Assembly (NCBI GenBank): GCA_963969365.1
Contig: OZ017755.1
Location: 1,302,001 to 1,366,000 of the forward strand
Direction: 5' to 3'
From: Asterochloris sp. CNOR1
Taxonomy: Eukaryota; Chlorophyta; Trebouxiophyceae; Trebouxiales; Trebouxiaceae
Length of the DNA stretch: 64,000 nt
In this document: piece by piece, positions 25,343 through 54,332 of the stretch
Layout: each line of letters starts with the position of its first letter
How positions within the stretch are numbered: the stretch's first letter is position 1
Made by a program: the position numbers and the translations under genes
Notes under the pieces: generated by a model
What the model saw: only the letters and a program-made list of their open reading frames with translations
What the model was told of the DNA's origin: nothing
The model's database searches: none

Positions 25343-25488
25343 GCCAGGCTGATCCTGCAGTGTTTACCTTTGAGGGATAGTGTCAGCACTTGCCATAGGT
25401 GCATATGCTCCTGAGATGCCAGCAATGGCTTCTACCACCCACAGTGAATTTTATTCACCACTGCCCATCCTGCTTTCTTGGCAGCCTT
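25343..25488. other. Convergent 3' gap SerRS / MCTS1
   Basis: Only 146 bp separate the two stop codons, so the 3' UTRs of the two transcripts must be very short or overlap. No poly(A) motif was recognised. Confidence 0.6.
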
Positions 25489-30700: not shown

Positions 30701-33700
30701 AGTCATCCTGCACTTGCGTGAGCTGTCAAGCACGTCTCAACATGTATGGTGCTGCCCTGCAGGATATCCTGGACAAGGTGCACCTGCGCAACACCAACAA
30801 GCGCAGATTCACAATCCTGAACAGCGTCAGCGGAGTCATCAAGCCAGGCGTGTTCACGCTGCTCCTAGGGCCTCCCGGATCGGGAAAGACCACTCTGCTG
30901 ACCGCCCTGGCTGGCAAGCTTCAGGGCGTAGGTGGCGTGAAGGTGCGAGGGGCTGACCTCCCGAACCATTGCTGTGCCCTCTGCAATGCCGGACGAGGCC
31001 CTTGCCCCACCCTGCTCGCAGACCTGGCGGTCAGGCTGCAAGCAGTTGCACTGAATGACAGGGAACGCTCAATGGCAGGACTCTGCATCCCTGAAGGTCA
31101 GCAATGAGGTCAGGCGCATCTTGTCAAACACCTGTGCAGCGTGTGCTGGCAGTTGCACATTGAGGTGCATGAAATAATAAGCTGCAAGCTGATGAGGAGG
31201 ACCCGCCTGCTTGCAATGCGGCTAAATGCAGTGCGTTTCCCCCTCTGCCTGCAGACCACTGGCAGGGTCACCTACAATGGCAAAGCCTTCAAGGACTTTC
31301 TGCCCCAGAGGACAGCCGCCTACATTGACCAGGTGGACAACCACTACCCCGAGCTTACTGTGCGGGAGACCTTTGACTTTGCAGCCAGGACGCAAGGTGA
31401 GATGCCCACCCACGTGCTGGGCCTTGGGCCGCCAGCACTTGTCTTTGCTGCAAGGACCCACATCTATCTGCCCTGCTCAGTGAGCGGCCATCTTGTGGCA
31501 GCCAAGGGACATGAATGTGCAGCCTGGGCACAAGACGCCTGCATGCTCTCATCTCGCTGACACTGTGTAGCTGGTGGGCAATTTGTGTGTCAGACATGGC
31601 GCGGGGGCAGCGGCACGGCAACTGCCGGGCAGCATGTGCGGGACATCCTGACTGAAGTTGCGGCCTGAGGAATGATCTTGGCCATGCTGCAGGGGCTGGC
31701 CTGCTGCCAGACCTGCTGCAGGAGATCAGACGGCGAGAGAAGGAGCAGGGGATCGAGCCTGACTGGGAGATTGATGCCTTCATGAAGGTGCGTAGTGATT
31801 GTGGTGAACTTTGTACGCCTTGTGGTGCTTGTGTGGCATGCACACCATGGTGTGCATTCAGGAGTGTCATTCATTTATCAGCTTGAGGTCTGGCCTGGCT
31901 CATGAGCTCAGCCCCTTACAAAATCTGCACTGCAGCGCAGGCGGGATCGCCACAGTACTCCGCCAGCAGACCTGAACATGGACTGCTCAGGTGGCTCTCT
32001 ACTGCTGTTGGTGGTGGCGCTGACTTAGGCCCTAGTAGGACCTGCATACGCAATGCTCAGCAGCTGTGCTGCTGCTGCTGCAGGCCTCAGTGCGCGAGGG
32101 CAAGCGCGAGTCCATCACAACAGACTTGATCCTGAAGCTGCTGGCACTGGACGTGTGCAGCGAGACCCCCATCGGCAACCAGATGATCCGGGGTGTTAGT
32201 GGGGGCCAGCGCAAGCGTGTCACCACAGGAGAGATGATGGTTGGGCCCAAGTCGGTGCTTCTCATGGACGAGGTAGGTGATGTACATTTCCAACTGAATC
32301 CTTCAAGCTGCTGGTCTTTTGACAGCAAGTTGGCCTCCCAGAGTACAGGTCAAAGGGAGCTTTGGGGGTCAGCTGAAGCTCTCACGTACAGGCCTCATCT
32401 ATTGTTTGACGACACGCTGTGAAGTGCTGGCAGTGAAGTGTGGTGCAAGTGCTGGACACAGGCCCCAGGAGGTCTGGTCTGTCAGGACGCCTGTGCTCCT
32501 GCATTCCATGCACAAGGCAGCTGGGTGCCTAGCTGATTCAAGTGTTGCATCACCTGTTGAAAGGCACACCAGTGAATCTTGCACTGCAGAGAGCAATCTG
32601 AACCTGCTGCTGCACCGCGCTGCATATGAGCACAGCTTTGATAGCATCACTTCATCAGGCTTTCTGGCAGAGGTAATTGGTGTTGCACTCCTCGCAGCTA
32701 GTCCTGGATCTGTGCTTACAGGGCACTGCCCTGCCCTGCAGATCAGCACCGGCCTGGACAGCAGCAACACCTTCCAGATCGTACGCTGCATTCGTGACTT
32801 TGTGCACCTGCGCCAGGCCACAGTGCTGATGGCGCTGCTGCAGCCTGCACCCGAGACATACGAGCTCTTCGATGATGTGCTGCTGCTCTCTGAAGGTGAG
32901 GTGGTAGTGCAGTGCTGTGTTGTTGTGCTGCTGCTTGTTGAGGGTGGGCATGTCTTAGGATGTGTGTTCTTGTGTGGCGGCTGGATGGGCACAGCAAAGC
33001 CCCTGTCAGGGCTGGGCTTGTGTGCTCCAGCCTCTGATGTGGGCACAGGTGAGCACGACGGGCCTGTGCACTGCCTGTGTTGGAATGGGCCCAAATCAGA
33101 ATAGATAGGGGCAGTCAGAAACAGTGCAGCCGTCAGTTGCCTGCTGCACAGGCTGCCTCAACAATGACGTCAGCGTCAGCGCAGCTGTGCTGTATGTTTC
33201 CAAATTCATTGACAGCCTGCAGGTCACCCCATCAACCAGGGCCCACTCTAGGCTTCCGTGTGCTGTGAGCGCCAGGTTCTCTCCATGCCTGTGCCATACT
33301 GAGGACTGTGACTGTTTGCCCTCTGTAGGTCACGTCATCTACCATGGCCCAGTCAACAATGTGATGGACTTTTTTGAGGGCCAGGGCTTCCGCATCCCCG
33401 AGCGCAAGGGCATCCCAGACTTCCTGCAGGAGGTGACCAGCTACAAGGACCAGGCGGTGAGTCTCGTCTGGGTTGGTTTGGGTTCTTGTTGCCTCTGACT
33501 TCCTGTCTGCCCTAGGATGCTGCGTGCGATTCAGCTGTTGTGCAGTGCGTTCTGGACCAGGGGGGGGACTGCCTGCAAATGTGCATGTTGCTAAGTCGTG
33601 GGGGACTTTCAACTGGCCACTGCTGGTAATTGATAAAATTAACCATTCCAACTTGCAGAGAAAGTACAACAGCAGGGATGCCTCAGTGTCAATGCAACTT

Positions 33701-36700
33701 GCGTCAGCAGCCAGCAGGACATCAGGCACCTCATACAGGCTGGGGGCAACCTGACTCTCTGCCTATCAGAACACGACTGCAATCATCAGCTTCCTCGTTC
33801 AGCCTGCAGCAGTGGTGCCATGACTTGGGGAAGCACACATTATTCAGCAGCAAGCCCCAGCCCTGGTCCCTCATCCAGGCTTTACCCTGTACCTGTACCT
33901 GCAGCGCTGCTTGCCTGCTGAGGATCAGCTCAACTATCAGTACCCTGTGCGTGTCCTGCCCCTGCCCCAGCAATGCAGACTTCCAGCAACAAGTGTTTCT
34001 GGCTCTGCTGCAGCAATACTGGCATGGACGCGAAAAGCACCAGTATGTGGGTGTGGCCCACTTTGCTGAAGCTTTCCGGCGTACCATGGGCAAGGAGAGC
34101 GTAGAGTACTTGCAAACGCCCTACCAGCCCCCCAATGACCAGTGCATGAAGGCGCTGCAGACCAGGACTTACGCCCTGCCAGGTAGGCTGCACATGTGAA
34201 TGAAGGCTTTGCAGTCTCGGTGCAGATCTCTTGACAGCTGCGCATCACTGCATGGCTGTAGCAATCTTAGAAGGTCCAATTTGACCAACGCCTAGAGGCG
34301 CTGCAGACCAGGACCTGTGCCTGCCAGGTGGATAAGCCCTGCACTGACTGCCTTTGGCATCACAGTTGCCAGCGTGGCCCATGTACTTGCATGTGCACTC
34401 TGCATCTGATGATGCATGTGTGTGTGGTGAATGCCTCAGCAGGCTGAGTCCTACACTGTGGCCGGGTCACACCTGCTCCACCAGCATGCAGCGTGTTGCG
34501 CAGGGCACCTGCTCTGGCTTATGCATGCTGACCCCTCCCTCTGGCAGCAAGCTGGAATAAAGCCAGTGCATTCCACCACCCTCGTGCTTGTTACGAGTGT
34601 GCCTGATGTGCAGGGAGCTTGCGCGTGACTCCAGCTGGACAGCTGGTGTGTCTGATCTGCAGGACGCTTCAGGTTTCCAGGCTTGACAGGCTGTGTGCGT
34701 GGTCTGCAGGGCTCAAGCGTTTCAAGGCGCTTATGAGACGCGAAGTCATTCTGGTGCAGCGTACTCTGTTCATCTATTACTTCAAGACGTCACAGGTCGT
34801 CATTATGGTGAGTCTGCCCTGCCGCAGCGCGCTGGAGCAGCTTATGCTCTTTCCCTTAACTCACGTGGTCTCTGCTCAGCTGTACCGCAGCTGGCGACCT
34901 GCCAAGAATGCAGTGTGTCTATGGGGATGTCATGTCATTTTGCTGGCTCCTGCATGTGGTTGCTTGCACCCAAGCTGTGTTCGCAAAAGTGCGATCGTTG
35001 CTGGAGTGTAGTTGCAACCTGCAGGCCCTGATTTCTGCTACTTTGTACCTGCGCACCCACATCCATCCAGTCAGCCCTCAAGATGGCAATGAGATCTTGG
35101 GCTACCTTTTCTTCACCAGTGAGCGCTGTTCACAGTGCTATCCTGCGCCATGCACAGTACTTTATCATGGCAACGCACCCTGCCTGCAGGTTGCTGCTGC
35201 ATCACAAACCTCCGCCTGCGCTCTTTGTTGGCCAACTAGGAGCACACTCAAATGCTGATTATGCTGTGCAGTGTGCTGCCTCACCCAGCAGCCAACCCAT
35301 GTGTCCCTTGCTGTCCTGCAGTGCTCATCATGCTCTTCAATGGTATTGCCGAGATGAGCATGACAGTGGAGCGACTGTCGGTCTTCCACAAGCAGCGCAA
35401 TAATCACTTTTACGACGCCTTCTCCTTTGTCATGCCTGGCACCATCATGAGGCTGCCCTACTCCCTGCTGGAGGCAGTGGTGTGGACTGTGCTCAGCTAC
35501 TTCCCTGTGGGCCTGGCTGGGCAGCCTGACAGGTAAGCATTTGGCCGACAAGGGCACCTCTCTCACATGCATCCTTGTCGCTGTGGCTGCTTTTGGGACG
35601 AGGCACCTGCCTGCTTTCATCTGAGGAGTGAGACCGCTGCCAATCAGCATGCATAGTTGTGCAACTGCACAGCCGCTCAGCACTGTGAATAGCTGCTGTG
35701 GCTCCCATGAGCCACCAGGACCCGCCTCACCAAATTGCTGCCCCCGCTCCCCGCCTTTTACACCCCAGATGGTCACCTAAAAACATTTGTCTTCGCTAAA
35801 TTCCCTGATGCAGTCAAAAAGCCTGCCTGTATCCTTAGCCAGGCCCTTGCATCTTGCAGGTTCTTCATGTTCCTGGTCGTGTGCTTCCTCATGCACTCCT
35901 GGTCTGTCAGCCTCTTCCGCATGATTGGAGCGCTGGCCAGGAACATCGTTGTGGCCAATGCCATTGGTTCCCTGGCCATGCTGGGCATCTTCCTGATGGG
36001 TGGCTTTGTCATTGCTAAGCCCAACATCCACCCCTGGGTCGTCTGGATCTACTGGTGAACCTGGCGAGGCCCTGCGGTTTTTTTCACTTTGTGCTTCAGC
36101 ACAAAGGCCTCACCTTTTGTAGTTGCAGCCCGTGGCTTGGCTTAGTGTGTGCTGGGATGAACCACCATCACAGCTTCAGCTGGCCCTGCACATGCAGAGC
36201 CCTGCGGCCATGCTGCTGCACATGTTCTCAAGCATGTGCTGAGCTGTCAGCAGCTGCTGAACTGAATTGCCTGAGTGCACTGCCCCTTTGCTGGGCCAAG
36301 CCCTCGATGCCTGCAGGGCCAACCCTCTGGCGTATGCGCAGCGAGCTGTTGTCATCAATGAGTTCACGGCAGGTGACCTGAAGCACCCTGTTTGCTGACT
36401 GCCTGGGTGTAATGATTTTTTAGCAACATTGGGCTACTCTGCAGAGCCTGATGCCTGCTGTGCACCTTAGCTGCACCAACATCTGACGCCTGCTGATCCT
36501 CAGGAGCGACTACTGTCTGAAGAGCACTGGCAGAACAGCTCATTGCTGATGCCTGCTGCTGCTTGCAGGCCATTGGCAGGACAAGCGCTACCCCTATGAC
36601 ACTAGCATGAGTCTGGGAGATGGCGTCCTGAAGAGTCGTGGCTTTTCAAACCACTACTGGTGGTGCTGGGTGGGCATCGGCGTGCTCATCATGGGCAATG

Positions 36701-39700
36701 TCATCTTCAACATCGGCCTGATTGCTGCACACGCCTACCTGCCACGTGAGTCATGCTGCTGCCTTGTGCTTGAGTCAGGCTGCTTTCTTACGTTTCTAGG
36801 CATGCCTGCACGGGGCTTCTGCCCTCAAGAAATGTCACGGAAGTGTTGTGTGCCCAAGTAGCATGCACATCTCTCAGCTGCAATCCTCAGATACTGCTGA
36901 CAGCACAGCATGCTGCTTGTGCTCTGCTGGGTCCTGTTCAGCAGCACACAGCTCCACCTCTGAAGAGCCCCAACATGCAACATGATCATGCCTGCCTGCT
37001 TCTCTGTAGCTTGGGGCTGCAGCTTCCTTCCTGCAGGCAAATGGCTAGTCGGCAGAAGAGGATTCCTTGTCAATGATGCAGAGATGCCCGTCTCCCTTCC
37101 TGCAGAAGGCAGGAGTCTGTCAGCAGCAGGACTCCCTTTGACACTGCTGAGCACCCCTTTTTGCATGCTTGTTGGGAATGCCTGTCAGCAACAGCTGCCT
37201 TACTTTGGGGTTTTGCAGATATCTTCCTGGCAGTCCTGCAGGAAAGCATCGGCCAGCAGCTGGGATCCTTTCATTGAGTTCACGGCACACAAGATGCATA
37301 CCTGCTGCCACACAAAGGCCACCTGCTGACTGGGGCTCTCAGCATTAATTGACAGACACCAGGCCACCTCGTATCCATGCCTACAGCCCAAAGCCATATC
37401 AGCTAACCTCAGCTGGTGCTGCCTGCTTGTATGCCCAGACTCACAGGCCCTGCCTGCCTGCCTGTAGCCTGGAACTCCAACAAGGCTGTTGTCTCGGACG
37501 AGTCTCTGAAGGACCGGGCAGTGGCTCTGCACGGCGACGGTGCGGGCGACGGGCTGGCCCAACAGGCTCCCATGCGCAAGGGGGACAGCAAGGGCAGCCT
37601 GGAGCTGTCCTCCAGCAAGCACCTGCAAGTGAGCTGTTGCTACACATGATGCAGTGCAGGCTGTCTGTGGTCTAGCCAGTGCAAGGGGGTAGAGCAGGGA
37701 GGGCAAGGGCAGCCTGGAGTTGTTGGTGCAAGCAGCCTGCTTGTGTCAGGCGTTGTTGTGCCTGGCTGCACTTTTCTGCAGCCTAGTCGTGCCTGTGTTG
37801 CCTCTTGCTGGAGCTGTTCCGATCACGATCAGGCAACCAGGCTGAGTTCTCTTTCAGCCAGTCGCAGCCAGCAGGGAGCAGGCAGAAACCTTTGCTTGGC
37901 GTCATGTTTTGCTGCACCTGCGGTTTGTTGTGCTTCAGGGTTCTATGCTGGCATAGAGGTTTACAGTGCGCCGTTGTTCTTTGGAATTGGGCTGAGCCTG
38001 TGCCCTGCATGATGCTGGCCTAGGCTGCCTTTTGCTGTGCTCAGGGTGGTTGTGCAATTGCCCCCAAAGGTGCTGTTCTGCTGCACATGCTGCCTATGAC
38101 TGAAAAATAGACTGCTGTGCAGGGGGGTCATGAAAATGGCCACACCAACGGACGCCACAATGTTTTAAATGAAATTGGGAACCCTGAGGTTGACCTCGAG
38201 AGTGGCGAGGCTGCCTCCTCACTAAACTCCTCAGGTGACGGGCTGTCATGGATGCCTCCACTGTCCTAAGCGGTGCACAATCCTTCAAACCTTGCCATGC
38301 TTGCCGAGCTGGTTGCATCGTTGGAAGCCACCTGCATGGCCTCTGCTATCACAGCAGCTGTCAGGCCCCGCAGCTCACATCCTACTCAGCACCATGATCA
38401 GGCACCTGAGGCTGGCTACCATGTTGTAGCAACGCACATTATGTAGCCAACTCTGCAGGGTTGCCCTCAATTTGATCAAATCCTGTGCGTCATGTTTTGC
38501 TGGCCTTCCCAGCAAACTGTTCAGGCAAGGCAGTGTTCAACTCAGCCTTTTCCAAGCATCTCAAATCCACGCTGCTAACATGCCCTTGCAGACGGCACAA
38601 ACAGGCTGGAGTCCTACCCAGTGGCCTCTCTTCCAGCGTCTCGCATGCCCAGCAACACTGGGGACCAAGCCCCTGGTACTGGGCTGGCCTCAGTTGAAGA
38701 GCAGCAGCAGCCAGATGGCACTGCCTCACGCCGCCAGTCAGCTTCCGGCGGTCCCCCTTCATCCCGCAGGGGCCGAGAGAGCTTTGTGCAGAGAATGAGC
38801 GGCAGCCAAAAGAGGTTCAGCGGCGAGCACCAACGGGCATCTCAGGACGGCCGCCAGCCTGGGGACGCGCGGCGCGGTATGGGCTCCTGGCGGGGCAGCG
38901 GCAAAGCAAGTGAGCAGCAGCCTGCCTGGTGCACCCCTGTTGCGCCTGCTTGATGTATGGAGGGAGGTCGGGCAGGCCTTGGCGCAGCACAATGTCCTGG
39001 CCATGCATCAGCAAAGCACTCTTTCGGCAGCCATCAGTGCTGTTGAGCCAAGTCATTGTCTGACACAACCATGTTGCAGCTGCAATGCTGTACCACTGGG
39101 TGGGTGCATGTCCATATTACAGCATGAGCTCCTTCAGGGGCAGCAACTCAGCTCGTGGGTGTGCTGCTCTCGGGCGCAGTATGTTGGCACAGTCACATTT
39201 CTGTGGGCCAGGATCCATCTGTGGGAAGACAATGTTAGGAGAGGGCTGGAAGCGTGCAGGTGACTTGTTGGTATGCTGACCTGGTGGCCTCTGGACCTGC
39301 AGGCCGGCGCGAGGTCACAGGCAGGGGCATGGTTCTGCCCTTTGAGCCCATGACTATGACCTTCAAGGACGTGCACTACTATGTGGAGATCCCCAAGGTG
39401 GGCACAAGTCTGGCACTTCTGAATCACAAGTGGTGCAATGTCTTTCGTCTGGCAGATTAGCCACAAGTCCTGTGAAGCAGCAGGAGGCAGCGGATGGGCT
39501 ACGTGGTGCGCCTGCGCGGTGGGAACAGTCGCATCAATCTATTTAGAACAGCCCACACAATTTGGTTCCCTGCCTGCTGCAGGAGGCAGCCAAGGATCGG
39601 GAGCATGTGCACCTGGAAGGGAAGAAGCACATGCTAGAGTTGCTGCAGGGCATAGACGGGGCATTCAGGCCTGGGGTGCTCACCTCTCTCATGGTGCGCC

Positions 39701-42700
39701 CTGCTTCTCATGCATTCCTGCAGCTGCTTGCGAGGGCGCACTCAGGCCTGCCTTCCTTGTGCCTCTCAAGGTGGGCACTGCTGCACATGCACCCCTGCGT
39801 CTGCTGCATTTGCTGTCGCATGTCTTGCCAATGCCTCTGACTGTGTGGGCTTTGCTGTGTCAAGGACCGCCTGCTCTCATCTCACATTGTACTGCTTTCT
39901 GATTACACTGTCCTACCTGTCTGCAGGGCGTATCTGGTGCAGGCAAAACAACCTTGTGAGTCTCCTGCTAGCAAAACACTGCACCCTACACCTTTGCAAT
40001 TTCGGCTTTTGCAGCTGCAGATGCAATTAGACGCCAGGATATCCTTATTCACAGCTGCTGTTGCTGCCTGCAGGATGGATGTGCTGTCAGGTGACCTGCT
40101 GCTGTGGATCTTGGCTACCCTCTGGCCTTCTTAACCACTTTGCGGCTTGCCTGTGCTTGTGCGGCCGCAGAAGTCAAATCAGCTGGCCCTGCTCTCCTTC
40201 ACCTGATACCTGCTGCTGCTGCCGCTTGCTCATGTTGTCCAGGTCAAGCATGAGGCACTTAAGCTGTCTGGCCTGGTGTCACACAGGCAGGAAGACTGGA
40301 GGCAAGATCACTGGCGACGTGCGCATCAACGGGCACCCAAAGGAGCAGGACTCCTTTGCTCGTATCTCAGGCTATGTAGAGCAGGTGCACTCACCCACAC
40401 ATATTCTGCTAGTGTGCATGCCTTTTTGGGTGATGCCTGCATGGCTGTGCTGCTGCTGCATGAAACTGAAGCGACTTGGAGCAGGTGTGAATCCACCTAT
40501 TGATGTTGGCCTTGCCTGCAGTCAAGTGTGGATGTGCTGCTGCAACAGCCATCATGCAGGCATGCAGCTGCCTTGCCAATCCTGCAGCCCATCTGCCCTG
40601 CATCCAGCCCCCATGTGCCAGCTGCAGTTGCACCCATGTGGTCTCTCAAGCCCTCAGCTGCACCCTCTGTGCTGCTCCCTGCCTGCAGTTTGACATTCAC
40701 TCCAGCCAGACCACGGTGCGTGAGGCCCTGCAGTTTAGCGCCCACCTGCGCACTAAGCACAGCAAGGACACCACTAGAGAGCTAGTGGAGACATTTATTG
40801 ATGAGGTCAGTGCCTCCATGATGTTCCTCTGATTGACTTTTGTCAGGTGCACAGTAGCAATGGATCATCAGTGATCAGGTCAGTGTCCACATTGCTTCTT
40901 GAACCCAGGCTCGAGTGTTGAGCAGGCTGGGTCACCAGATCAGGGAGAGAGTTTCATCAATGAGGTCAGTGGTGTTGATGGTTTGCCCACAAGGTCATGC
41001 CAGAATAGTTCGTGGCGCCCAATAAGCAGCTTGCATTAGTTGCGCTCTTCAGTGCCTCACAGCCTTGTACTATGGCCCGACTGCAGTCAGCAGCCCGCCT
41101 CTGGCAGCGAGGCTGGCCCTGCTGCATGTCAGGCTTTGTCCTGGATAGTCCTCATGCCAGCAAGTTGGAAGTGAAAGCTTGTCATGCCCCTGCTCTGGTG
41201 CATCGTATTGCGTCTTCTCTCTGGTGCAGCTTTGCAGGCATTTTCATGCCTGCACGTGTCAGCTGTGATGGGGCCTCACCTATGCCGCGTACGTGCTTGG
41301 CTCCGAGCTGCCATCCCTCAAGTGTGCTGCCCTGCAGGTAATGGCCCTGGTGGAGTTGGACCCTCTGCGCGATGTGCTGGTGGGGCGCCCAGGCCAGAGC
41401 GGCCTGTCAGTGGAGCAGCGCAAACGCCTGACCATCGCTGTGGAGCTGGTGAGCTGCGGTGGCCATGCCTGGGAGGCTGGAGGCCTTCACGGCCCCATGC
41501 AAGTCCACGAGGTGTACTGCAGCCTCAGCAGCACTCTGCACCAATCAGCATTCAATGGAGCCGGCTCAGTGTTGTGAATTTTGTGACTTTGTCTAGCCGC
41601 CTGCAGTGCAGCACCTTCCCTGTTTGGGAGCATTTCTGTGAAGCAAAGGGAGAAGCTGACCACTGCTGAGGATTGGCGCAGTGCTTCTGCACTGGTTCTG
41701 CTTCAGCTGCTGGTTCACCTGCTGCAAGCCAAATCTGTCTAGACTCAGAAGCCGTGACTGTGATAGCAGTCAACAGCTGCTGCTGCTGGGGGCACACATT
41801 GTTGCTTGACATGCTTCTGCTGCCTTGCAGGTGGCCAACCCCTCAATTGTGTTCATGGATGAGCCCACATCAGGTGGGTGCTGCAGCGGCAAACCATATG
41901 GTGAATCGTATGCCCCTGGCGTGCCTCTCCCTGCACACAGCGATTCAGCACCTGAGGCACCAGAGCAGAGCATGCCACTATTCTGGCCCTGTGGCCACTC
42001 TGCTGCTCGCTTAACCTGATTGAGCACTACAGCAGAGCATGGATGGACTTTACGGACATGTTCTGACCGGAGGACCGCAATTTGACCTTGTGTTATCCCT
42101 CTGCAGGCCTGGACGCCCGTGCTGCTGCCATCGTCATGCGCACAGTCAGGAATATTGTCAACACTGGACGGACGATTGTCTGCACCATCCATCAGCCGTC
42201 CATTGACATATTTGAGGTGAAGCCGCTTTCTGGAGTGTTGTACTGTGCCACATTGGCCTGTCTGTGCTCTGACATGCTTGGCATTAACCTTATTCATCAT
42301 TGCAAAACATCGAAAATCATTTGGCACCTGCAGTCTCTTCCCAGCAGGCAGGAGGATATTGAGCTACCCTCAGGTTGCCTGCAGCTCTGTTCCTCCCATG
42401 CAACTGCATTTATCTGCAGGCTTTCGATGAGCTGCTGCTGCTCAAGCGCGGTGGTGAGACAATCTACAATGGCAAGTTGGGGGAGCACTCTGCTGAGCTT
42501 ATCAAGTACTTCAGCGTAAGTTTGGCACTGACATTTGCTACAACGATGCTTCCAGCAAGAAACCATGGCTTGTGCCATGGTAGTGTCATGTGGCATCAAA
42601 CCACCACCAGAGCCATGGTTGCGCCTGTCCCACTTATTCTGCAAGCTCAGGCTTGCCAGCACCCTGCTTGTCTGTGGATAAGTTTGCAGCTTACCAAGAA

Positions 42701-45700
42701 GTCTGAGCATTGTTGCTTTAATAATTTCCTGAAGCTGCCTGCAGGCTGTGAATGGGGTGCCACGAATCAAGGAGGGGCTCAACCCAGCCACTTGGTGAGC
42801 TGCTGGTAACAGTGCCTGCTGTTGTGCCTGTCCCTGGCAGTGGACCACCGAGGATGGATGCAAAGTGTTACCGATCTATTGGCAGGAGCAGTAACTGTGG
42901 TGGCCTCTGCAATGATGCCAAGTTATGCTCTGTTGCTCCCTGAGGTGATAGCCACCTGTCCCAAAAGGCCGCATGCTTGAGTGCAAGTCAGGCCTGAGCT
43001 GTTGTGGCCCTTGCCTGGTCAATTGCACTGGGGGCCAGGCAGCAGCTGGACGGCGGATGCCGGAGGCCCTTCACAGAGCATGCTGCTGACTGGCCTCCCC
43101 TGCTTTATTGCAGGATGCTGGAGGTGACCACTCTGGGCATGGAGAAGCGGTTGGGCCTGGACTTTGCCCAGGTCTACAAGCAGTCCAACCTGGCCAAGTG
43201 AGCAGACGCTACCCACCATTGATCTGCTGCATCAGGCATCATGCCGTTTGAATGCGGAGCTATCAAGCCTTGTGAGGGCTGCAGGCAGTCTGGCCTAGCT
43301 GACTGAATCACAGCCTCTGCTTGCACCAGTGTACTGACCACTGCGCTTCTCCACAGCATTTGCTGACAGCCTACAGGCAGATACTGTCTGTGCACCTGCT
43401 GCCTCGCTTGCAAGTGACGTGGCTGTGCTCTCAACCTTCTGCTTGATGTTTGGAGGGTGCACAAGCAGGACCTTTTTCGAGTCGAATTGAGCAGATCTGG
43501 CTGGTCTTGGCTGCAGCAGGCCGCAGCCTGGCTTGTTCAGCCTGTGCAAAACAGCACTGCCTGTACAGCAGCTGACGCAGACGTTTCGTTCGCCGAGCTG
43601 CAGGTGCCTTGCCAGCAATGAGCTTCCTGCACAATGTGTCAGGCTGTGTCAGGAGCATTTGGGGCTTCAGCAGGCTAAGACGCCTGTATGAATGTGCTGC
43701 AGGCGGCAGTATAAGCTGTTGGTTATGCTGCACACAGTGTCCAGGGAGCATGTCACTGCAGCAAGCTCTTGTTGTGCTGCAGGCGCTATGAGAGCATCAT
43801 CCAGGAGAACAGCCAGCCAAAGGAGGGTAGCCAGCCCCTCAACTTTGAAACCAAATTTGCCAAAAACACTCTCCAGCAGTTTGTCATCATTTGGCGCAAA
43901 TTCATGGCCATCTACTGGAGGTGAGAGGCTCACACGTGATATCTTTGCCAGTGTGGTTGGTAGTCCAAGCTGCAGAGGAAGTGGACACAGCTCTCGTCAG
44001 GCACTGCGTGTGCTGGTGCAATGGTGGCAGATGGTGTTGGTGAGGGCCAGCTGTGAGGTGTGTGGGTATCTTGGGGTGGTGATCAGACAGTCCTGGGTAT
44101 TGGATGCTTGTTCTGGTCATTTGTTGTGTGGTGCTGTGGGGGCAGGCATGGCTTGTTTGGGGCTAACGGTGACCTGCCCAAGACACTGTTGTGGTAGAAG
44201 AATGACTGAGATGCGCTACAGTACTGTCATGAAGCAACCTGGCACGTATGGCAGCCATGCGGAGTGCGCAGCACAGGTGCAGCAGGAAGTGTTGCACACT
44301 TGCTGGTCTGATAGATGAGGCTGGGTGTGCTGCTGACAATGAGCAGGGGCCCTGGTTTAGCCTGGCTTGTCTACAGGCCTGAAGCCATTCCTGTTGCTGG
44401 CCGTGAGCTTGAAAACAGACCTCTCAATGCGGGTGCAAATTGGCATCAGCATCAGGCAGCCCTTGCAGCTGGCAGTGCGCACGATGTGGACCAGTTTGTG
44501 CAGCACAAATCTTGAGCTGCTGTTGCCAGTGGCCAGGGGCCCAAGCTGCAAGGCATGTGTGCTGCAGGACGCCAGAGTACAATGGAGTGCGGTTTTTCTT
44601 CGCTGTGTGCATTGGCCTGCTGTTTGGCGCCATCTTCTGGAAGCTGGGTGACGACAACTCCACACAGCTTGGGCTCTTCAATGTGCTTGGTGGGTGCCTG
44701 GTTGCCTGGCACAGCAGCATGTTTGTTGGCACAACTCAGATCTGATTCTCACGTGCTGGCTCAGTGGCCGTCACCAGGCTCAGGGCCTCAGCTTCTCAGT
44801 AGCCTCACTCATGACCTTGACCTCAACTTGCCCCGCATCAGCTGCGGCTTCTTTGCCTCACATGCCTGAAACAGCACTTTGCAAAGGAGTATTCTTGCAT
44901 AGCGCTTGAATCCCAAGCTTTGCTGCAGTCACCTTTAGTGGGTGGCTTGGAACTATGAATTCGAGGAAATGTCATTGTTGCCCTTTCTGGCCTGCCTCGC
45001 ATTGCGTCCCTGTTGCTGCAGGTGCCCTGTATGCAACCACCCTGTTCTTCGGCATCATCAACTCCATTGTTGTACAGCCAGTTGTGGCAGAGGAGCGGGC
45101 TGTCAGCTACAGGTGGGCGTCATGCTTGGCTGGGCCTGCTTGCAGTGCAGCCAGCACCGTAGCACCTGATGGGATGCAACCCAACCATTTTGGGTCTGTG
45201 CCGCCACCTGCCCAGGTCTGAAACTTATTGCCTTGACCCCAGCCAGTGGCCATGCCCATCACTGCGCGCTGGGGCCTGAGTGGCCGATCATCTCTCCGGC
45301 CAGCGCCTGCCGCTTGTGGTGTGCTGCTTGCTCCTGCACTGTTGAACCTGGCCACTTGGTCATGCTGCTCATCGTGCCATGCAATTTCATCTTCATCTCA
45401 GTCTATGACCTGCAGGGAGAAGGCTGCCGGCATGTACTCCATCCTGCCCTGGGTCGGAGCTCTGGTCAGTGCCTGGCATGCTGCTGCTGTGGATGCTTTG
45501 ACAAAGTGTTGTTCTGCCTGACTGCTTTTGATGGGACTGACCCTGTTGCCTGCCCTTCGAGTCCTGCATGGGCACTGACAGGCAGAAAGGTTGCCTAGGG
45601 TGTGTTTGTGCTGCGTTTATGCCACTCCCCGGCTGCAGGTCTCTAGCAGCATGCCATTGCTGCTACAAGATGGCATGCAGTAGCACCCACCCCTGACCAT

Positions 45701-47293
45701 CGCCATTTCCAATTGGTTATGCTGGTCTTTGGTGCCCTGCTTGCCAAGCGGCACTGCCCTGACTTGACTTGCAGCGTGCCTCTGTTACAGGGCTGCGTGG
45801 AGATCATCTATGTCCTGGTCCAGTCCATCCTGTACACTTGTGTGGTGTACTTTATGTGCGGCTTCCTGACAAATGCAGGTGGGTCCCTTGTTTGCTGTGT
45901 GGCGCTGTGCACTGCCCGAAGGCAAATGCAGCCCAGGTCCTGCTTGGATGAACTGCAAAGCAGGCCCTTGAAAGCTATAGCCAGGCTGCAATTGGCCAGC
46001 ATTGCCCTGTGCTTGGAAAACTCTTCTCTCACTGCTTCCCGCTGTGTCTGCAGCGAAGTTCTTCTGGTGAGGGCCCGCGCCTAGAGGCAGACAGAAAAAT
46101 CACTTCCCACCTGCTGCTACCTGCTTGTGCACACGCAGCGCTATCTGTCTGACACAACAGCCTGCCCCCAATGCAGGTTCCTTCTCTTCATGGTGCTGAC
46201 TCTGTGTTACTTCACCTTCTGTGAGTTGACATCCTGGCGCATGCCGTGCTCTTGACCTTGTCACTGCTGGGCTGCTCACTTGCATTCTGTCACATGCTGT
46301 GCGATTGCCTACTTCACTGTAGAGGTGCCCACTGCAATGCAGACGGCATCATGGCGGTGGCAATCACACCCAACATCAAGGTCGCAGCCGTCATGTCATC
46401 CAACTTCTACGTAAGTGGGGATCAGCAGTGCACATTTCTGATGACTAAGGCTGTTTGGCAAGCAATTCGCTTAGGCTTGGCAGGTGCTGTCTGCAGGCGC
46501 TTTGGAACTTGTTTGCTGGCTTTGCCATCCAGCTTCCGGTAAGCCTTTTGCTGTCTGTCACGAATTTCCCTGCCTGCTCAGATCCCACATTGGTACAGCA
46601 GTCTTTGCACGGCCAGCCGCACTGTGTCATTTACTCCCGGGGGCCATGCTGACACAAGCAAGCATGGCTGCAGAACATGCCTGGCTGGTGGATCTGGTAC
46701 CCGTACATCAATCCTGTATTCTGGTCAGTGTGGGGGCTCATTGCCTCACAAGTGGGAGACGAGCAAAACAGTTACGTTTTGCTGCCTGGCGGTGACCGCC
46801 CGAGCGTGGCATCCTATGTCCGTGACAGCTTTGGCTACAGGTGAGGCTACCCTAAACCCCTCCTGCCCCCTGACTGCTGGCGGGCAAATGCTCTCATGCT
46901 GAGCATCGGCTCTTAGTCAGTGCAGCTTTGGTTGAAGCACAGATCCACTGATGTTGTGCACTCGTGGCTCCCTTCGGCGCCTGTACTATTGTGCCTGGCC
47001 GCCCCAAAGCCCCTTTCAGTGGAGCTGCATAAGGCACTGTGGCCCGCCAGCTGCGGACTGCTTGTCATGCGCCTGCAGGCATGAGTGGCTCGGCTATGTT
47101 GTGATCATCCTGATAGGCTGGGTTGGCGTTTTCTGGTGAGGCCAGCATGGTACCTGCTGCAGTACTGCTGGACTCGACCACAGCCAGGCGAGTGCCAGCC
47201 CCACCTGCCTGCTCTGTTTTGAAATGTTGCTGTTGTGGCTGCAGGTTCCTTTGTTACTATGCTCTTAGGAATCTCAACTTCCTCAAGAGGTGA
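27755..47293 (+). CDS. Full-size PDR-type ABCG transporter, 1589 aa, 44 exons
   Basis: A membrane exporter in (NBD-TMD)x2 order. Exons: 27755-27767, 28222-28337, 28958-29068, 29639-29815, 30763-30927, 31255-31396, 31693-31787, 32084-32272, 32742-32895, 33329-33456, 34014-34182, 34710-34807, 35025-35118, 35322-35532, 35860-36054, 36317-36372, 36569-36745, 37468-37628, 38123-38234, 38592-38909, 39303-39397, 39583-39693, 39927-39955, 40074-40090, 40287-40384, 40689-40805, 41338-41448, 41831-41873, 42107-42216, 42420-42515, 42745-42794, 43114-43197, 43783-43920, 44568-44689, 45022-45112, 45416-45464, 45791-45878, 46054-46066, 46177-46220, 46343-46410, 46497-46538, 46674-46840, 47079-47135, 47245-47293. 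Total 4770 nt, in frame. NBD1: Walker [10 protein letters not shown] at 175-183, signature VSGGQRKRV near 311, Walker B SVLLMDE at 330-336, Gln in place of the switch His (LLQPAPE). NBD2: [10 protein letters not shown] at 1030-1039, signature LSVEQ at 1139-1143, [14 protein letters not shown], His kept (IHQPS). A Ser/Gly-rich linker of about 200 aa separates the halves. The substrate cannot be told. Confidence 0.95.
28753..28848 (+). repeat. 26-bp tandem repeat, about 3.7 copies
   Basis: The unit GGCAAGGCAGCCTGCAAGTG plus CCTTCT begins at 28753, 28779, 28805 and 28831. Copies differ at one or two positions and the last is partial. It lies in ABCG intron 2. Confidence 0.88.
28893..28946 (+). 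repeat. 27-bp tandem duplication
   Basis: AGAGGGCTCAAGCTGAGCCC plus GCCCACG is followed directly by AGAGGGCTTCAGCTCAGCCC plus GCCTGCC. It lies just upstream of the acceptor of ABCG intron 2. Confidence 0.8.
34148..34330 (+). repeat. Copy of exon end plus donor in ABCG intron
   Basis: GGCGCTGCAGACCAGGAC at the end of exon 34014-34182 recurs exactly at 34297-34314. It is followed by a similar TGCCAG|GTGG donor in place of TGCCAG|GTAGGC. The copy is 146 bp downstream of the original. Confidence 0.85.
37575..37735 (+). repeat. Copy of exon end in ABCG intron
   Basis: The end of exon 37468-37628 (CAAGGGGGACAGCAAGGGCA, then GCCTGGAGCTGT) is repeated at about 37681-37735 as CAAGGGGGTAGAGCAGGGAG, then GGCAAGGGCAGCCTGGAGTT. 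The copy has diverged and gained a small insertion. Confidence 0.7.
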
Positions 47294-47914: not shown

Positions 47915-49051
47915 TCAGAGGGCCCGGAAGAATGGGGGGGTGCCATCAGTTTTTTGGACTCGTCCTTCCTCACGCAGCTTTTGGAGCAGCTGATTGACCT
48001 GCAGCCACAGAGCTCATTGAGAGTGTTCAAGAAACCAGCTGCATGACGAACAGCGCTAACAGCCCCTCACCTTGCACTTGACAAGGGCCTTCGAGTTTGC
48101 TGGTGTGAAAGGCCACAAAGCATTTGTCAGCGCCAGGGCATTCAGCTGCTGAGGCTCCACGCCTATGAGATGCATGAGAATGCATTCCTGCACAACAGCA
48201 AGCAACAAGCTCTTGAAGGAGCTGAGTATCTGGCAGGTCAAAATAAAGCTTGGGCATGCAGGGCACTAGACCAGCATAGACAGGGCCGGACAGGCCTGCA
48301 GAGGCAGGGCATGTGCTCAAAGTCGATTTTGGTCAACTTCCAGGCAAGCTCTGTAATCCTGTTCAGGGCACCGCTATGCCCAGGCACTCTGAGTCTGGTA
48401 CAAGCGCTGCTCTGTGGGTTCCTCGGGGGCAAGAGGCAGACCTCATGGGCGCACCTTGTTGACAGGGTCACTGCCATGCTCCATCACAGGTAGAGGGCGC
48501 AATGGGGCATGCCTTACGCTGGTGGCTGAGGCTCGCATGCAGTTGCACATTGCAGCAGGGGCGTGACCTTCTGCTGCAGTGTGGCGTAACAAGGCTCTGC
48601 TGCCTGCTGAGGAGGCAGAATGTCCTTGAAATGGCATCTGACAAGAGGTTCCAGGCATGCTTGCCCTGGGCATGGTGCTTGAGCTGCCCGATTGGGGCAA
48701 CAAGCGCTCAGGGTCTGACAAGGTTGAGCAACTCAGGGAAGCAAGCTCTGGGTCTGCTGGAAAGTCTGGCTGCATACTGACCTGCAGAGCAGGGCAGAAA
48801 GCACCTTAGAACATGCTGCAGGTAGAGCCATGGTGAGGCATGGGCCTGGCTTGGCCAAGAAAAGGAAACTATGAGCATCAGACAGATCTTCAGGCTGCAA
48901 CCTGCATGGTGGCCTTCTCGCGTTGAGCAAAGTCCAGCTTCTGACTGAGATCGACCTCCAACTTATCCAGGGCCTCGAGCTTAGTGTGCTGTCTTTGCAT
49001 GTCTGCAGAACGCATGGGACTGCCAGAGAATGATGACCCTTCCCCAGCCAT
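47915..49051 (-). CDS. Small protein with C-terminal Z-alpha-like winged helix, about 204-244 aa
   Basis: Supported exons are 49051-48902, 48781-48518, 48187-48071 and 47998-47915, all in phase 0 (204 aa). An optional exon at 48411-48292 (LNRITELAWKLTKIDFEHMP) would give 244 aa but has a weak donor. The N-terminal part is Ser/Pro-rich with one helical stretch (KLEALDKLEVDLSQKLDFAQ). The last two exons encode ILMHLIGVEPQQLNALALTN, then KALVKCK joined to VNQLLQKLREEGRVQKTDG and TPPFFRAL before the TGA stop. This matches the Z-alpha pattern (recognition helix with Asn, then a beta-wing ending G-T-P-P plus an aromatic) known from ADAR1 and ZBP1, whose Asn and Pro residues contact Z-form nucleic acid. 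The Tyr of the recognition helix is replaced (Gln in my alignment), and the wing Trp is Phe. The start is the first ATG of the open frame; an upstream exon is possible. Other winged-helix families remain an alternative. Confidence 0.6.
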
Positions 49052-49210: not shown

Positions 49211-52148
49211 CTACTCAACATTGATTTTGTTCCTCTTCTCGACTTCCTTCAACTCCTTCTTGGGGATGTCAATCTTGAGTACGCCACCGTCAAACTTGGC
49301 CTGCAGGTGACTGAGCGCTGGTCTCACACCTGATTGTTGCAACTAGGCTCTGCCGCAGAGGCTTGCACACCTGATGAGGCAGCAATTGTGCAGCAGCCCT
49401 GCTGCAGGCAGAGCTGCACACATTGAGGCGTGCCTACTGAGGTGTATGCAGAGTCTTGACAATAAGGCACACAGAAAGCTGACCTTGACATTGTCCAGGT
49501 CAGCTGTCTCAGCCGGCAGGCGCACCCAGCGCTGCTGGAACTCAGTCGCCCGCTCAGACCTGTGGATCTGCAGGGAGACCGTGTCATGAGAAACTGCTCA
49601 GCACCTGACTCAAGCTGCTGAAATGAACCGGCAGGCAGTTGCAGCAGGAGCCACGCGGCGCGTTCAGGTGGCAGCTGTCAGTGACAAGCCATCGGCCACT
49701 ATGCCTCCTGGCAAACTGCTGCACAGTGCAGGGACTTGAGCAGCAGCAGAACAGTCTACAGACATCATCAGAGCAGAGCTGATGGCAGTTGACGGCTGGA
49801 TGCTTTGCCGCAAGCTGCCACACTGAACCAGGACCGCACTTTGACGCCCTTGACATCCTCATCCTCCTGCAGCAGCAGATGGCAATCATTTAGGGGACAC
49901 CTGCAGCAGAACTGCCCCGCAACACCCTGCGGCTGCACCTCAGCAGCGCAGGGCCCAGCAGGCATCACACTTGGACTGAGTGCTGCCAGCAGGACAAGGA
50001 ACCTGCAGCCACTCCTCGGCAGTGTGCCAGCGTGGCTGTCTGGAATTGCTGTGCCTAGCCACACTCTATGAGCAGGCCTCAAATACCCGCCGGCCAGCTC
50101 AACTCTGAACTGGGACATTGCTTGCTAAACACCAAGCCGTGCCTGACCTGCACCCCACATCACCAGGACTGCATACACTGCACCCACCTCACCCCCCGCA
50201 TCCTCTGGCAAAGCAGACAACCGTACTCAGCACCTCGCCAACAGCCCCACATCCTGACGGGAGAAATGCAATCTGCAGGGCCCACTAGTGCTCCGACTCC
50301 CAGGCAGGGCATGCACTCAACCCTGCGATTCTGTCCCTGGCAACCAGGGAAGCATGCGCAAAGCCAAGGCAGAATGCACACTAGGGCCCAAACCCACCAG
50401 ACCCTCAAAGCCCAGGCCAGAATGCACTCATGCCCGCCACCCACTACGAAGGGGCATGCAGCTGCTGATGGCGGGCGGGGCATGCCTGCTGCAGCTGGGC
50501 AGCGCATGCACACAACTTCACCCCTGTCACTCCAAGCCCGGCATGGGCCCTCAGACTCACGCCCGCAAGCTTCCCACCCCCAGACAGAGCATGCACCCAG
50601 CCACAAAACCCAACAAAAGCCCAAGAATCCGTTACAGGCATGGGCCCTTAGGCTCACACCCTCAAGCCCCAGACAGAGCATGCGCCCAGCCACAAATTCA
50701 AAAGGGGCCCAGCACCAACTACAGTGCAGGCCCACCTCCCCTTTCTCCTCCTTTGTCACAGAGATCTTCAGCATGTCGCCATCCACACTGACCTGCACGG
50801 CGCAGCGCAAAGGTCAGAGGGTGACGAATGATAGCTTGAGCTGCATGAGAATCACATATGCTGCACTATCTGTGTGCTGAACTACAATGGAGCGAGCAGC
50901 AGCGCCTCTTTTAACTCGCAAACTGACAACCTCAAGGCCAGATGAGGGCAGCGCGCTGCACAAGCTGGATTGCAAAGCAGCTGCTGCTGAGGCTTGTCTG
51001 CTTCCAAGTCAAACCAAGTTGAGCAGGCATGAGAAGCCTCTGCTGTGTGGTTGGCAACGCGTGCAGAGCAGCTAGAATGATGAGCTCACATCGACGCGAT
51101 CCTTGTCAACTCCAGGGATGTCTGCAGTAACGTGGAACGCCTTGTCATCCTGCAGGGCACGTTGAAGATACTGATCTGGTGTTGTGGTGTGACTGTATGA
51201 TGTCAAGGTGCTGCCTGCTTAGAGGTCCATAAGCCAAGCACAGGTTGCGTGCTTGCGCTGAGCTAGCCCTGCTATGCTCTGCCAGTGCTGCGCCTCGGGG
51301 CTGTGCATACATGCTTGGATGTAGCCTACCACGCAAACTCATGCATCGATCAGTGCATGGCAGGTACAGCAGGCCCTCAGGGTCAGGGTGCTCAAGCCCT
51401 GGAGGGTTGCTGACTGGCTGGCCAGTAGTGACGTCCAGGTTGAGTGGCGTGCTGACTGACCTCAAGTCAAGCACCGGGACCAATTTGCTGGCTGAGTTTG
51501 GAGTCAAGCAGCTGAGTCTGCGCGCGGCTCACCTCAGTGATGTCCAGGGGGATGGGGCGCAGGTCCCTGAGCTCCTTGTCAAAGGCCGGCAAGGCCAGGT
51601 CCCTCATGCCGAAGAAGGGCCGCAGCAGGTCTGCAGGACAGGCCGCACAGCTAAGGTGGCCCTGCAGTATTCCGCATTGCTGGCCACATGCACGCCATGC
51701 TTGCGCAGCTGTACAAGGGCCTGCTCAGGGGCGCAGGAGGGACTCAAATCAGGAACCCTGTACTGCGGACACCTGAAACTTGCCGCCATGCAGCCAAGCA
51801 AGGACTGCATCAGGTCTGCCTGCCTGCTCATGCTGTCTGCGCTGCACTGCTTATCAAAGCTGCTGCCCAGCTGTCTGACATGCCATGCCAGCAACAAGGG
51901 CCACAGATGCATTGCAGGAGGCAAACAAGCAAGGCGGCCTGCTTTGCCCCTCGAGGCGGCCTTGTGTACCAGGCTGATGCCTGCCGCATGCATGCGTGAG
52001 CTGTGCTGGCGCACAGTCAGCATGCAGCAGGAGGGCATCTTGGCAGGCCCACCCATTGGCTGCTGCAGTCACAGAGCAACATTCTCAAGGCCGCCCATGC
52101 TTTAGTTCAGCGCTCACCAGTGGCCATGTTTGAAGACACCAGCGCCAT
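49211..52148 (-). CDS. Small heat-shock protein (HSP20/alpha-crystallin family), 147 aa, 7 exons
   Basis: These ATP-independent chaperones bind unfolding proteins. Exons: 52148-52118, 51630-51533, 51149-51090, 50792-50736, 49866-49835, 49559-49484, 49300-49211; 444 nt, phases consistent, TAG stop. It starts MALVSSNMATDLLRPFFGM. The alpha-crystallin domain begins near residue 44 (DDKAFHVTADIPGVDKDRVD), continues VSVDGDMLKISVTKEEKGE and RSERATEFQQRWVRLPAE, and ends with the consensus AKFDGGVLKIDIPK. The C-terminus RNKINVE contains an I-x-V motif that normally docks into a neighbouring subunit for oligomer assembly. No targeting peptide is seen, so it is probably cytosolic. Seven exons are many for this family, which often has none or one intron in plants. 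It follows TlyA on the same strand with 248 bp between them, and the Z-alpha-like gene lies 159 bp beyond its stop. Confidence 0.93.
50290..50720 (-). repeat. Degenerate repeat of about 97 bp inside an HSP20 intron
   Basis: GGCATGGGCCCT occurs at 50540 and again at 50637. In both cases it is followed by CCCAGACAGAGCATGC(A/G)CCCAGCCACAAA-like sequence. More degraded copies with GCATGC and CACTC blocks extend upstream. The composition keeps frames open on both strands. Confidence 0.7.
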
Positions 52149-52396: not shown

Positions 52397-54332
52397 TCAC
52401 ATCTCAGGCTGCATTCTGGCAAACAGGGCCAGAAACTCTGTGTTGCCACTGGCAGCGCCCTTGATAGGCGATTGGATGCATCCGCAGGCCTTGAAGCCAT
52501 GGCTCATGGCCTTCTGGGTCACTGTGGAAATGATCTGCTGGTGCACTTCAGGGTCTCTTACAATGCCACCCTGCTCCACCTGTAACATGCACTGTGAGTG
52601 TTGGCAAGGCTTGGTCGGCAGGGAAATAGTCTAGGCAGCGTCTGAAGCTGCCAAGAGATGCCTGGGGGTGCATGATTGGACCCAAGGCTGGGCTGTGCTG
52701 CCACATGAGGCTTGCTGAAGGCAGCAACTCCAGCTTTCAAAGGGGCTGTCCTGATCACACTCATGAACTTATTCCAAGAATCCAGTCACAAGTGAGCAAC
52801 ACTCAATCCCTTTCTCTGACCTGAGCAGAGGCTGCCTCAAACTGGGGCTTGATCAGGGTCAGCAGCTGCCCATTGGGCTTCAAAAGATCCACCACAGCCG
52901 GCAGCACCTGCAAAGCAGCCATTCAGTCTTGTCAGGCAAAGCTCAATCAGCCCCAGCTATCCGAGGGAGCTCATGAGACAACAATGTCACCTTCGCAATG
53001 CTGATAAAGGAGAGGTCCAGCGTGACCAAGTCCACCGGGCAGGACCCCTCTGGCAGGTCCATTGGCTTGAGCAGGCGCAGATTAGTGCGCTCCCTGAGAA
53101 TCAGTCGCTCATTCAGGCGCACTGGGTCCGCAACCTGCATTTTGAGTGAGGGCCTTGTGACTCAGCATACAGGCTGCGCTTCCTGAGCAGCAGGCGCACC
53201 AGTTTGCAACCTGCAATGCATGGTGTTGCTGATGGCAGTGCTGCTCAGCACACAGGCTTCCTGAAACGCACTGGTTCACTCACCTCCAGTACAGAACCTC
53301 GGCGGGGGGTCACCATATGGGAGACACACATGGAGTAGGGGAGCAGGCTGATGCTTGACATGCCGTGTTCTGCATGGCAGGCAGGGCCCCAGGCTGCCAC
53401 TGCCACGGGGGCATGCTAGCAGGAGAGGCATCGAGTGCAGGGGCCCGCTGCGGCTGAGGCAGCTTTGCAACACCGTGAGTCCGGGACAAGCTGTGCATCC
53501 CCTGGCCTGCAGCCAGGCAGGTTTCCCTGCCATTGTAAGCTGATGCTGCTGTAGCAGGACCCCCATTGGCATGCCAGGCAGCTGCAAGAGCAAGTCTATG
53601 CCTGTGACCTGCAGCCACAATTGCAGACCAGGCCGGGGCCCGACATTCGCCCACATGACCCAGACTGTAACTGCGCTGCTACAGGTAGCTTCTGAACCCC
53701 CTTGAAACTGCCATGCTAGCAGGCCCACACCTGGCCATACCCCACGTCCACACCAATGACCAAGGCTGCCCCCCGCTGCAGCAGGCAGTCGCTGAAGCCC
53801 CCCGTGGAGATGCCAGCGTCCAGGCACTTGAGACCACTGACATCCACCTGAAAGTGGTTCAGTGCTGCCTCCAACTTCAGGCCAGCCCTGTATGGGAAAG
53901 ACAGGGCTGTGTCACACCCAGCTGGTAGGCCAAAAGGTTGCTTGTTGCTCATCTAGCTGCTGCATGCCCATTCGCAAAGAGAGTGAGCAGGCTCAGCTGG
54001 CAGCTTGGGTGGGGAGACTGCAGACTTGAACACTGGACGCTGTACTTGGCCTCATGCAGACTACAAGCGCAGAAGCGCAGGCCTTGCCTGCACACAAACT
54101 TCTGTGGGACTGCGGTGATGACGATGTTGCTGCTAGCCGGCACAGGAGTGCCAGCCTTGTTCATGGCTGCCCCATTGATCTGAACCTTCCCCTGCGCGAT
54201 CCAGGAACGCAGAGCCGCAGGGCTGTGCTCAGGGTACTGAGCGGCACAGAGCTCATCCAGGCGCACCTTGCGCTTGCTCTGGGGCTGCCTGGCAGAAGCC
54301 TGTAGCACCAGAAGGCAGTCATCTGAGATCAT
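52397..54332 (-). CDS. tlyA: TlyA-family rRNA 2'-O-methyltransferase (S4 + FtsJ-like domains), 271 aa, 5 exons
   Basis: TlyA proteins methylate ribose 2'-OH of rRNA cytidines using S-adenosylmethionine; an algal copy probably acts on plastid or mitochondrial ribosomes (inference). Exons: 54332-54088, 53887-53731, 53134-52991, 52907-52821, 52579-52397; 816 nt in frame, TGA stop. The N-terminal S4 RNA-binding domain (RLDELCAAQYPEHSPAALRS, then GKVQINGAAMNKAGTPV) is followed by the junction VCRAGLKLEAALNHF. The SAM site is CLDAGISTGGFSDCLLQRGA, then VIGVDVGYGQ. Further blocks are LVTLDLSFISIAK, LLTLIKPQFEA and GNTEFLALF. The expected catalytic K-D-K-E residues can be assigned to GLK, DLSF, IKPQ and NTEF. 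The first intron has a GC donor. The start at 54332 leaves no room for a transit peptide, so an upstream exon is possible. Confidence 0.92.
53888..54087 (-). other. GC-AG intron (TlyA intron 1)
   Basis: The donor is TGCAG|GCAAGG and the acceptor is TACAG|GGCTGG. The join gives FVCRAGLKLEAA, the conserved junction between the S4 and methyltransferase domains. Confidence 0.88.

Follow-up and report, generated by a model that had tools for sequence, protein, structure and literature searches.

Z-alpha domains, such as those of ADAR1, ZBP1 and PKZ, carry a tyrosine that contacts, or stacks on, syn-guanine. Besides its recognition helix (helix 3) and wing, a Z-alpha domain also requires helix 1, strand 1 and helix 2. 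In the excerpt of PMC11298590 used here, an NxxxY motif is called essential for Z-alpha, bacterial Z-alpha-like domains without both the Asn and the Tyr show neither binding nor conversion, and some coral domains with a Tyr-to-Phe change are still counted as candidates. The corresponding ADAR1 mutants are described in an excerpt of PMC6278649: Y177A binds poorly, Y177I and Y177F bind better than Y177A but less well than the wild type, and W195F lowers B-Z activity about two-fold, while murine DLM-1 naturally carries Gln at the Arg174 position. The Y177A mutation also significantly reduces stress-granule localisation (PMC3834823, in part), and a Tyr-to-Ile variant abrogates Z-form binding by Z-beta, a domain that binds G-quadruplexes (PMC13136903, in part). 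Z-alpha domains linked to PC4/p15 have already been reported from green algae (PMC11293857, in part); an earlier note on the present DNA had expected a plant-lineage example to point to an undescribed Z-nucleic-acid sensor or RNA regulator. The excerpt of PMC11298590 likewise names a p15-annotated protein in phytoplankton and another in Symbiodiniaceae.

The locus compared here with these systems lies in a 64,000-nucleotide stretch of the green alga Asterochloris sp. CNOR1 (contig OZ017755.1, positions 1,302,001 to 1,366,000), hereafter the window. Four open stretches on the minus strand, with GT-AG borders and all in phase 0, make up a 225-residue model. Its features are as follows:

48902..49051, minus strand: putative exon 1, with the start codon and a coiled-coil-like stretch KLEALDKLEVDLSQKLDFAQREKATMQ; open frame
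48455..48781, minus strand: putative exon 2, doubtful; a Ser/Pro/Ala-rich linker, open frame in phase, with a codon composition like that of non-coding sequence
48071..48187, minus strand: putative exon 3, which would hold winged-helix helices 1 and 2; open frame, GTGAGG donor
47999..48070, minus strand: intron between exons 3 and 4; 72 nt, GTGAGG...CTGCAG, with in-frame TAG and TGA
47915..47998, minus strand: putative exon 4, with the recognition helix VNQLLQKLREEG, the wing RVQKTDGTPPFF and the stop codon
47993..47995, minus strand: Asn codon at the ADAR1 Asn173 position (kept), placed by the PDB match and window-scan alignments
47981..47983, minus strand: Gln codon at the ADAR1 Tyr177 position (not kept), placed by the PDB match and window-scan alignments
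47934..47940, minus strand: C7 run within the wing Thr-Pro-Pro codons, where a one-base sequence error would shift the frame

The open frames and splice signals are read directly from the DNA, and expression of the gene is presumed. The two exons drawn in the earlier note (48187-48071 / 47998-47915, minus strand) are confirmed as open frames that would join in phase 0 across a 72-nt GT-AG intron. Joined in this way, exons 3 and 4 give a 66-residue C-terminus, ECILMHLIGVEPQQLNALALTNALWPFTPANSKALVKCK / VNQLLQKLREEGRVQKTDGTPPFFRAL, followed by a stop. The intron contains in-frame TAG and TGA codons and must therefore be spliced out for the two exons to be translated as one. The donor of exon 1, GTTGCA, is weak; its coiled coil was judged by eye, with weak, chance-level matches to coiled-coil M-type proteins. 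A possible missed exon, ALNRITELAWKLTKIDFEHMP, lies in the intron between exons 2 and 3 (window 48307-48369, minus strand); this stretch scores 7.9 bits as coding-like, a common level in the window, and a slightly longer read of it has no Pfam match.

The locus is single-copy in the 56.4-Mb assembly (21 contigs). A search of the same genome for paralogs of the domain, at E up to 10, found none, both matches being its own two exons. With 21 hits to the chlorophyll a/b-binding family (E no higher than 1e-5), several of which belong to a single gene, the genome is that of a photosynthetic eukaryote. The gene occupies a 1.9-kb gap between two neighbours, whose ends were read by eye. One of these is an HSP20-family gene (exons at window 49211-50813, minus strand; E 3.8e-8 for two exons joined), whose stop precedes the start codon of the putative winged-helix gene by about 160 bases. 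The other, a long, many-exon ABC transporter gene (window about 29600-47293, plus strand), PDR-like by eye, converges on the locus, and its final piece falls short of the cut-off in its match to ABC2_membrane. Elsewhere the window contains FtsJ-like methyltransferase exons (52988-53883, minus strand; one piece matching at E 2.7e-14, the second below cut-off) that resemble TlyA-type rRNA methyltransferases by eye, Pre-PUA exons (25171-26267, minus strand; MCTS1-like by eye), a class II tRNA synthetase exon (23595-23759, plus strand; SerRS-like by eye) and a PDEase_I exon (62596-62874, plus strand).

The last two exons had been likened to a Z-alpha domain in the earlier note, which was free to pick any family. 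Pfam places z-alpha (PF02295, curated cut-off 21 bits) first both for the 66 residues, a chosen segment, at 18.8 bits (E 0.0017), and for the 225-residue model, at 16.4 bits (E 0.0096). Both scores fall below the cut-off, and the significant profile hit sought in support of the Z-alpha call did not materialise. BLACT_WH (PF17778, curated cut-off 22.8 bits) is nearly tied, at 18.5 bits for the 66 residues and 15.3 bits for the model, and for exon 4 alone it leads with 20.0 bits over 19.4 bits for z-alpha, both again below cut-off. A better match to another winged-helix family, which had been named as counting against Z-alpha, is thus found for exon 4 by itself, with z-alpha ahead for the two longer sequences. 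TrmB and DUF7343 also match helix 3 and the wing, below their own cut-offs. Exon 3 alone has no Pfam match, the 66 residues have none in NCBIfam, and Pfam finds no deaminase or kinase in the 225-residue model, in agreement with the earlier note. Among PDB chains, the 66 residues best match ADAR1 Z-alpha (E 0.023); with the 225-residue model ADAR1 appears at E 0.22, outranked by seven rows of unrelated chains. Exon 4 is the sole genome-wide match to the z-alpha profile at E up to 10 (16.2 bits, E 0.58), a loose limit at which 2 of 14 prokaryote control genomes also match, below cut-off.

Human ADAR1 Z-alpha aligns with exon 4 over 25 ungapped residues, 10 of them identical, with a BLOSUM62 score of 59. 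Of the 63,812 stop-free 25-residue segments on the two strands of the window, no other reaches this score; without GTPP it drops to 34, which is still reached by no other segment. Gapped alignment within the window gives 58-60 for exon 4, compared with 33 for the next best place. Helix 3 and wing therefore resemble Z-alpha more closely than the window background would predict, and all of the Z-alpha likeness is, as aligned here, confined to the 27 residues of this exon.

In these alignments, read by eye, the ADAR1 positions Lys169, Asn173, Arg174 and Tyr177 correspond to K, N, Q and Q, and the wing positions Thr191, Pro192, Pro193, Leu194 and Trp195 to T, P, P, F and F. The ADAR1 residue numbers used here agree with those of the mutants in PMC6278649. 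The residue assignments made earlier hold, with the Asn, the Thr and the two prolines conserved, Phe in place of Trp, and Gln in place of Tyr. The wing retains the Pro-Pro of Pro-Pro-x-Trp with Phe in place of Trp, and helix 3 reads NQLLQ, with the Asn but not the Tyr of the NxxxY motif (PMC11298590, in part). An Asn combined with a non-aromatic residue in place of Tyr lies outside the cases tested in the excerpt of that paper.

Exon 3 behaves differently from exon 4. In 37.5% of 5000 trials with exon 4 held fixed, a shuffled exon 3 fits ADAR1 Z-alpha at least as closely as the real one. In free-end global alignment of exon 3 alone, shuffles are as good in 87% of cases against ADAR1 and in 79% against ZBP1. 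Exon 3 ranks 18th among 89 in-phase upstream candidates for likeness to the N-terminal half of Z-alpha; the higher-ranked candidates, which are parts of the HSP20 gene, exon 1 and exon 2, were rejected as not credible. Alignment to ADAR1 further requires an insertion of about seven residues ahead of helix 3. Judged by these alignments, exon 3 adds nothing to the Z-alpha fit. The Z-alpha-like winged helix of the earlier note stands for its recognition helix and wing and as the top Pfam and PDB match of the 66 residues, and is unsupported for exon 3.

The domain could be a true Z-alpha descendant whose tyrosine was lost in parallel to the Tyr-to-Ile change of ADAR1 Z-beta, an explanation that we regard as unlikely. 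Such a domain would select the Z-form poorly; the same face, or one next to it, might engage G-quadruplexes or a protein, and Z-beta does bind G-quadruplexes without the Tyr (PMC13136903, in part). Its first rank in Pfam for both sequences and in PDB for the 66 residues argues for this descent, as do the uniqueness of exon 4 among own-genome z-alpha profile matches at E up to 10, the kept Lys169, Asn173, Thr191, Pro192 and Pro193 positions, and the Gln that murine DLM-1 also has at the Arg174 position (PMC6278649, in part). These points are offset by scores below the cut-off, a genome-wide E of 0.58, the misfit of exon 3 together with the roughly seven extra residues, and the higher score of exon 4 alone with BLACT_WH.

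A C-terminal winged helix of the LACTB2 or metallo-beta-lactamase type, kept without its enzyme domain, is far less probable, even though Pfam ranks BLACT_WH first for exon 4 by itself (20.0 bits) and exon 4 is the best BLACT_WH place genome-wide (18.3 bits, E 0.17). The human LACTB2 winged helix can be aligned over its full length with a single gap, and only 0.9% of 5000 exon-3 shuffles do as well, a figure not to be leaned on because it comes from one of two references tried. All scores remain below the 22.8-bit cut-off. A dedicated profile of 15 sequences, consisting of 14 plasmid homologs (of 68 matched records) and LACTB2, gives 4.7 bits, a value reached by 2 of 1000 whole shuffles and by 390 of 1000 exon-3 shuffles; exon 3 therefore adds nothing to this profile fit either. 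None of the 14 genome-wide Lactamase_B matches (E up to 1) lies in the window, and the 225-residue model contains none.

Coding potential was assessed with a codon model built from 41 conserved exons of the same genome (47 loci, 6 dropped for internal stops), each of which scores above 0 when left out (41/41; minimum 0.015 bits per codon). Under the full model, exons 1-4 score -0.026, -0.458, -0.073 and -0.009 bits per codon, all below the lowest of the 41 reference exons, in a comparison tilted towards the latter, since they encode conserved kinase and ABC domains. Among 4000 draws of random stop-free windows, 11%, 86%, 15% and 12%, respectively, score at least as high, and three HSP20-gene exon pieces, used as a positive control, reach 0.218 to 0.696 (random windows 3.1% or less). 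The drawn frame is the best of six for exons 1 and 3, exon 4 is outscored by two other frames, and the drawn frame of exon 2 is not the best. Restricted to synonymous codons, the model does not separate any of the four exons from random windows (39%, 81%, 43% and 52% as good), and the drawn frame of exon 1 is not the best of six. A segment scan gives 10.3 bits in exon 1 (48905-48982). Over exons 3 and 4 it gives 7.7 and 7.3 bits on the antisense strand, but no segment above 6 in the drawn frames. The window holds 303 segments above 6 bits, so values such as 7.7 and 7.3 are common. Taken together, the codon statistics weakly support the putative gene and lend no support to exon 2: exons 1, 3 and 4 are possible, and exon 2 is doubtful.

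These statistics bear on the proposition that there is no such protein, the stretch being untranslated or otherwise spliced and the exon-4 peptide resembling Z-alpha helix 3 and wing by chance. Weak codon scores, an exon 2 that looks like non-coding sequence, and antisense segments that outscore the drawn frames over exons 3 and 4 are all consistent with it. So are the derivation of the wing prolines from the C7 run, an expectation of about 0.6 z-alpha matches this strong by chance in the genome, and the finding of no relatives in viral, prokaryote, plasmid and phage collections. Two observations nevertheless make this proposition unlikely: the match stands far above the window background (58-60 against 33 for the next best, gapped), and four phase-sharing open stretches with GT-AG borders fall within a 1.9-kb intergenic gap.

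Run with no relatives in the input, AlphaFold2 reached a pLDDT of 44.6 on the intron-retained read; on exon 4 extended upstream by five residues it reached 68 and built a helix but no wing strands. Neither prediction yielded a confident winged helix. No relatives of the domain or the model were found in viral_contigs, and none of the domain in genome_contigs, plasmids or phages. Since the collections searched cover viruses, prokaryotes and plasmids, with little algal DNA, relatives may still exist in other algae.

The preferred reading, which we hold with about even confidence, is a small single-copy nuclear gene whose product ends in a winged helix of an ordinary kind, probably preceded by a coiled coil and a disordered linker. 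An ordinary winged-helix protein is likeliest because the key tyrosine is absent and the family score is below cut-off. The joint matching of helix 3 and wing by z-alpha, BLACT_WH, TrmB and DUF7343, none above cut-off, is consistent with such a fold; counting against it are that no family cut-off is passed, the missing Pfam match of exon 3, the low pLDDT and the weak codon scores. In this protein, the recognition helix KVNQLLQKLREEG would make the contact with DNA or RNA or with a partner protein, braced by the short wing GRVQKTDGTPPFF, and the N-terminal coiled coil would join it to a second copy or to another protein. We infer that it most likely functions by binding nucleic acid or protein in the ordinary way. 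Selective binding of Z-DNA or Z-RNA is unlikely because the tyrosine stacking on syn-guanine is absent, and a role as a Z-nucleic-acid sensor, or any Z-selective binding by the putative protein, appears improbable from its sequence. The Z-nucleic-acid binder or sensor first envisaged is accordingly unsupported: Gln occupies the Tyr position, scores lie under the curated cut-off, and exon 3 contributes nothing.

Candidate partners of a Z-alpha domain were considered elsewhere in the genome and rejected. A PC4 search of the genome returned three exon matches on contig C2, where plus-strand frames of at least 60 residues, read by eye, contained no Z-alpha and the genome-wide z-alpha search gave no match. 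A DEK_C-like N-terminus suspected at the PC4 place was not supported by Pfam. As a possible ADAR partner, A_deamin matches occur at two places, on C11 and C14 (5 matches), and judging by a motif they may be tRNA-type deaminases. Each place (C11:1945000-1953000 and C14:2350500-2358500) combines an A_deamin match with a CFIm25-like gene, in very similar sequence, and this two-gene block looks duplicated. The NUDIX_2 assignment comes from the C14 copy and one A_deamin assignment from the C11 copy.

A bolder proposal, which we consider a long shot, is that the locus encodes a plant-lineage Z-type domain outside PC4 fusions, in which Tyr was traded for Gln and which would recognise another unusual nucleic-acid form, either left-handed through polar contacts or a G-quadruplex as in Z-beta, with the coiled coil pairing two domains. 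If Z-form or G-quadruplex binding were true, such recognition would reside in a small, free-standing plant-lineage protein, which would help in asking whether Z-type domains predate antiviral immunity. The locus also carries a caution, as a GTPP wing and a helix-3 Asn are insufficient to call a Z-alpha domain.

Compared with the BLACT_WH domain of LACTB2, the algal domain has a similar helix-3 stretch (QKLREEGRV) and similar spacing ahead of it in the LACTB2 alignment; it differs in its below-cut-off score and poor fit to the 15-sequence profile, and the window has no metallo-beta-lactamase domain. Like the green-algal Z-alpha/PC4 proteins (PMC11293857, in part), it would be a Z-alpha-related winged helix of the green lineage, but the model has no PC4 domain, in a comparison made by description only. 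ADAR1 Z-beta offers a parallel as a Z-type winged helix without the tyrosine (PMC13136903 and PMC6278649, both in part), although Z-beta has Ile at this position where the algal domain has Gln, and the two are likened by description only. Unlike the Z-alpha domains of ADAR1, ZBP1 and PKZ, the algal domain has Gln at Tyr177, an unmatched helix 1-helix 2 half and about seven extra residues before helix 3, and it lies at the C-terminus of a model without deaminase or kinase. What it has in common with them is the register of recognition helix and wing and an aromatic residue at position 195.
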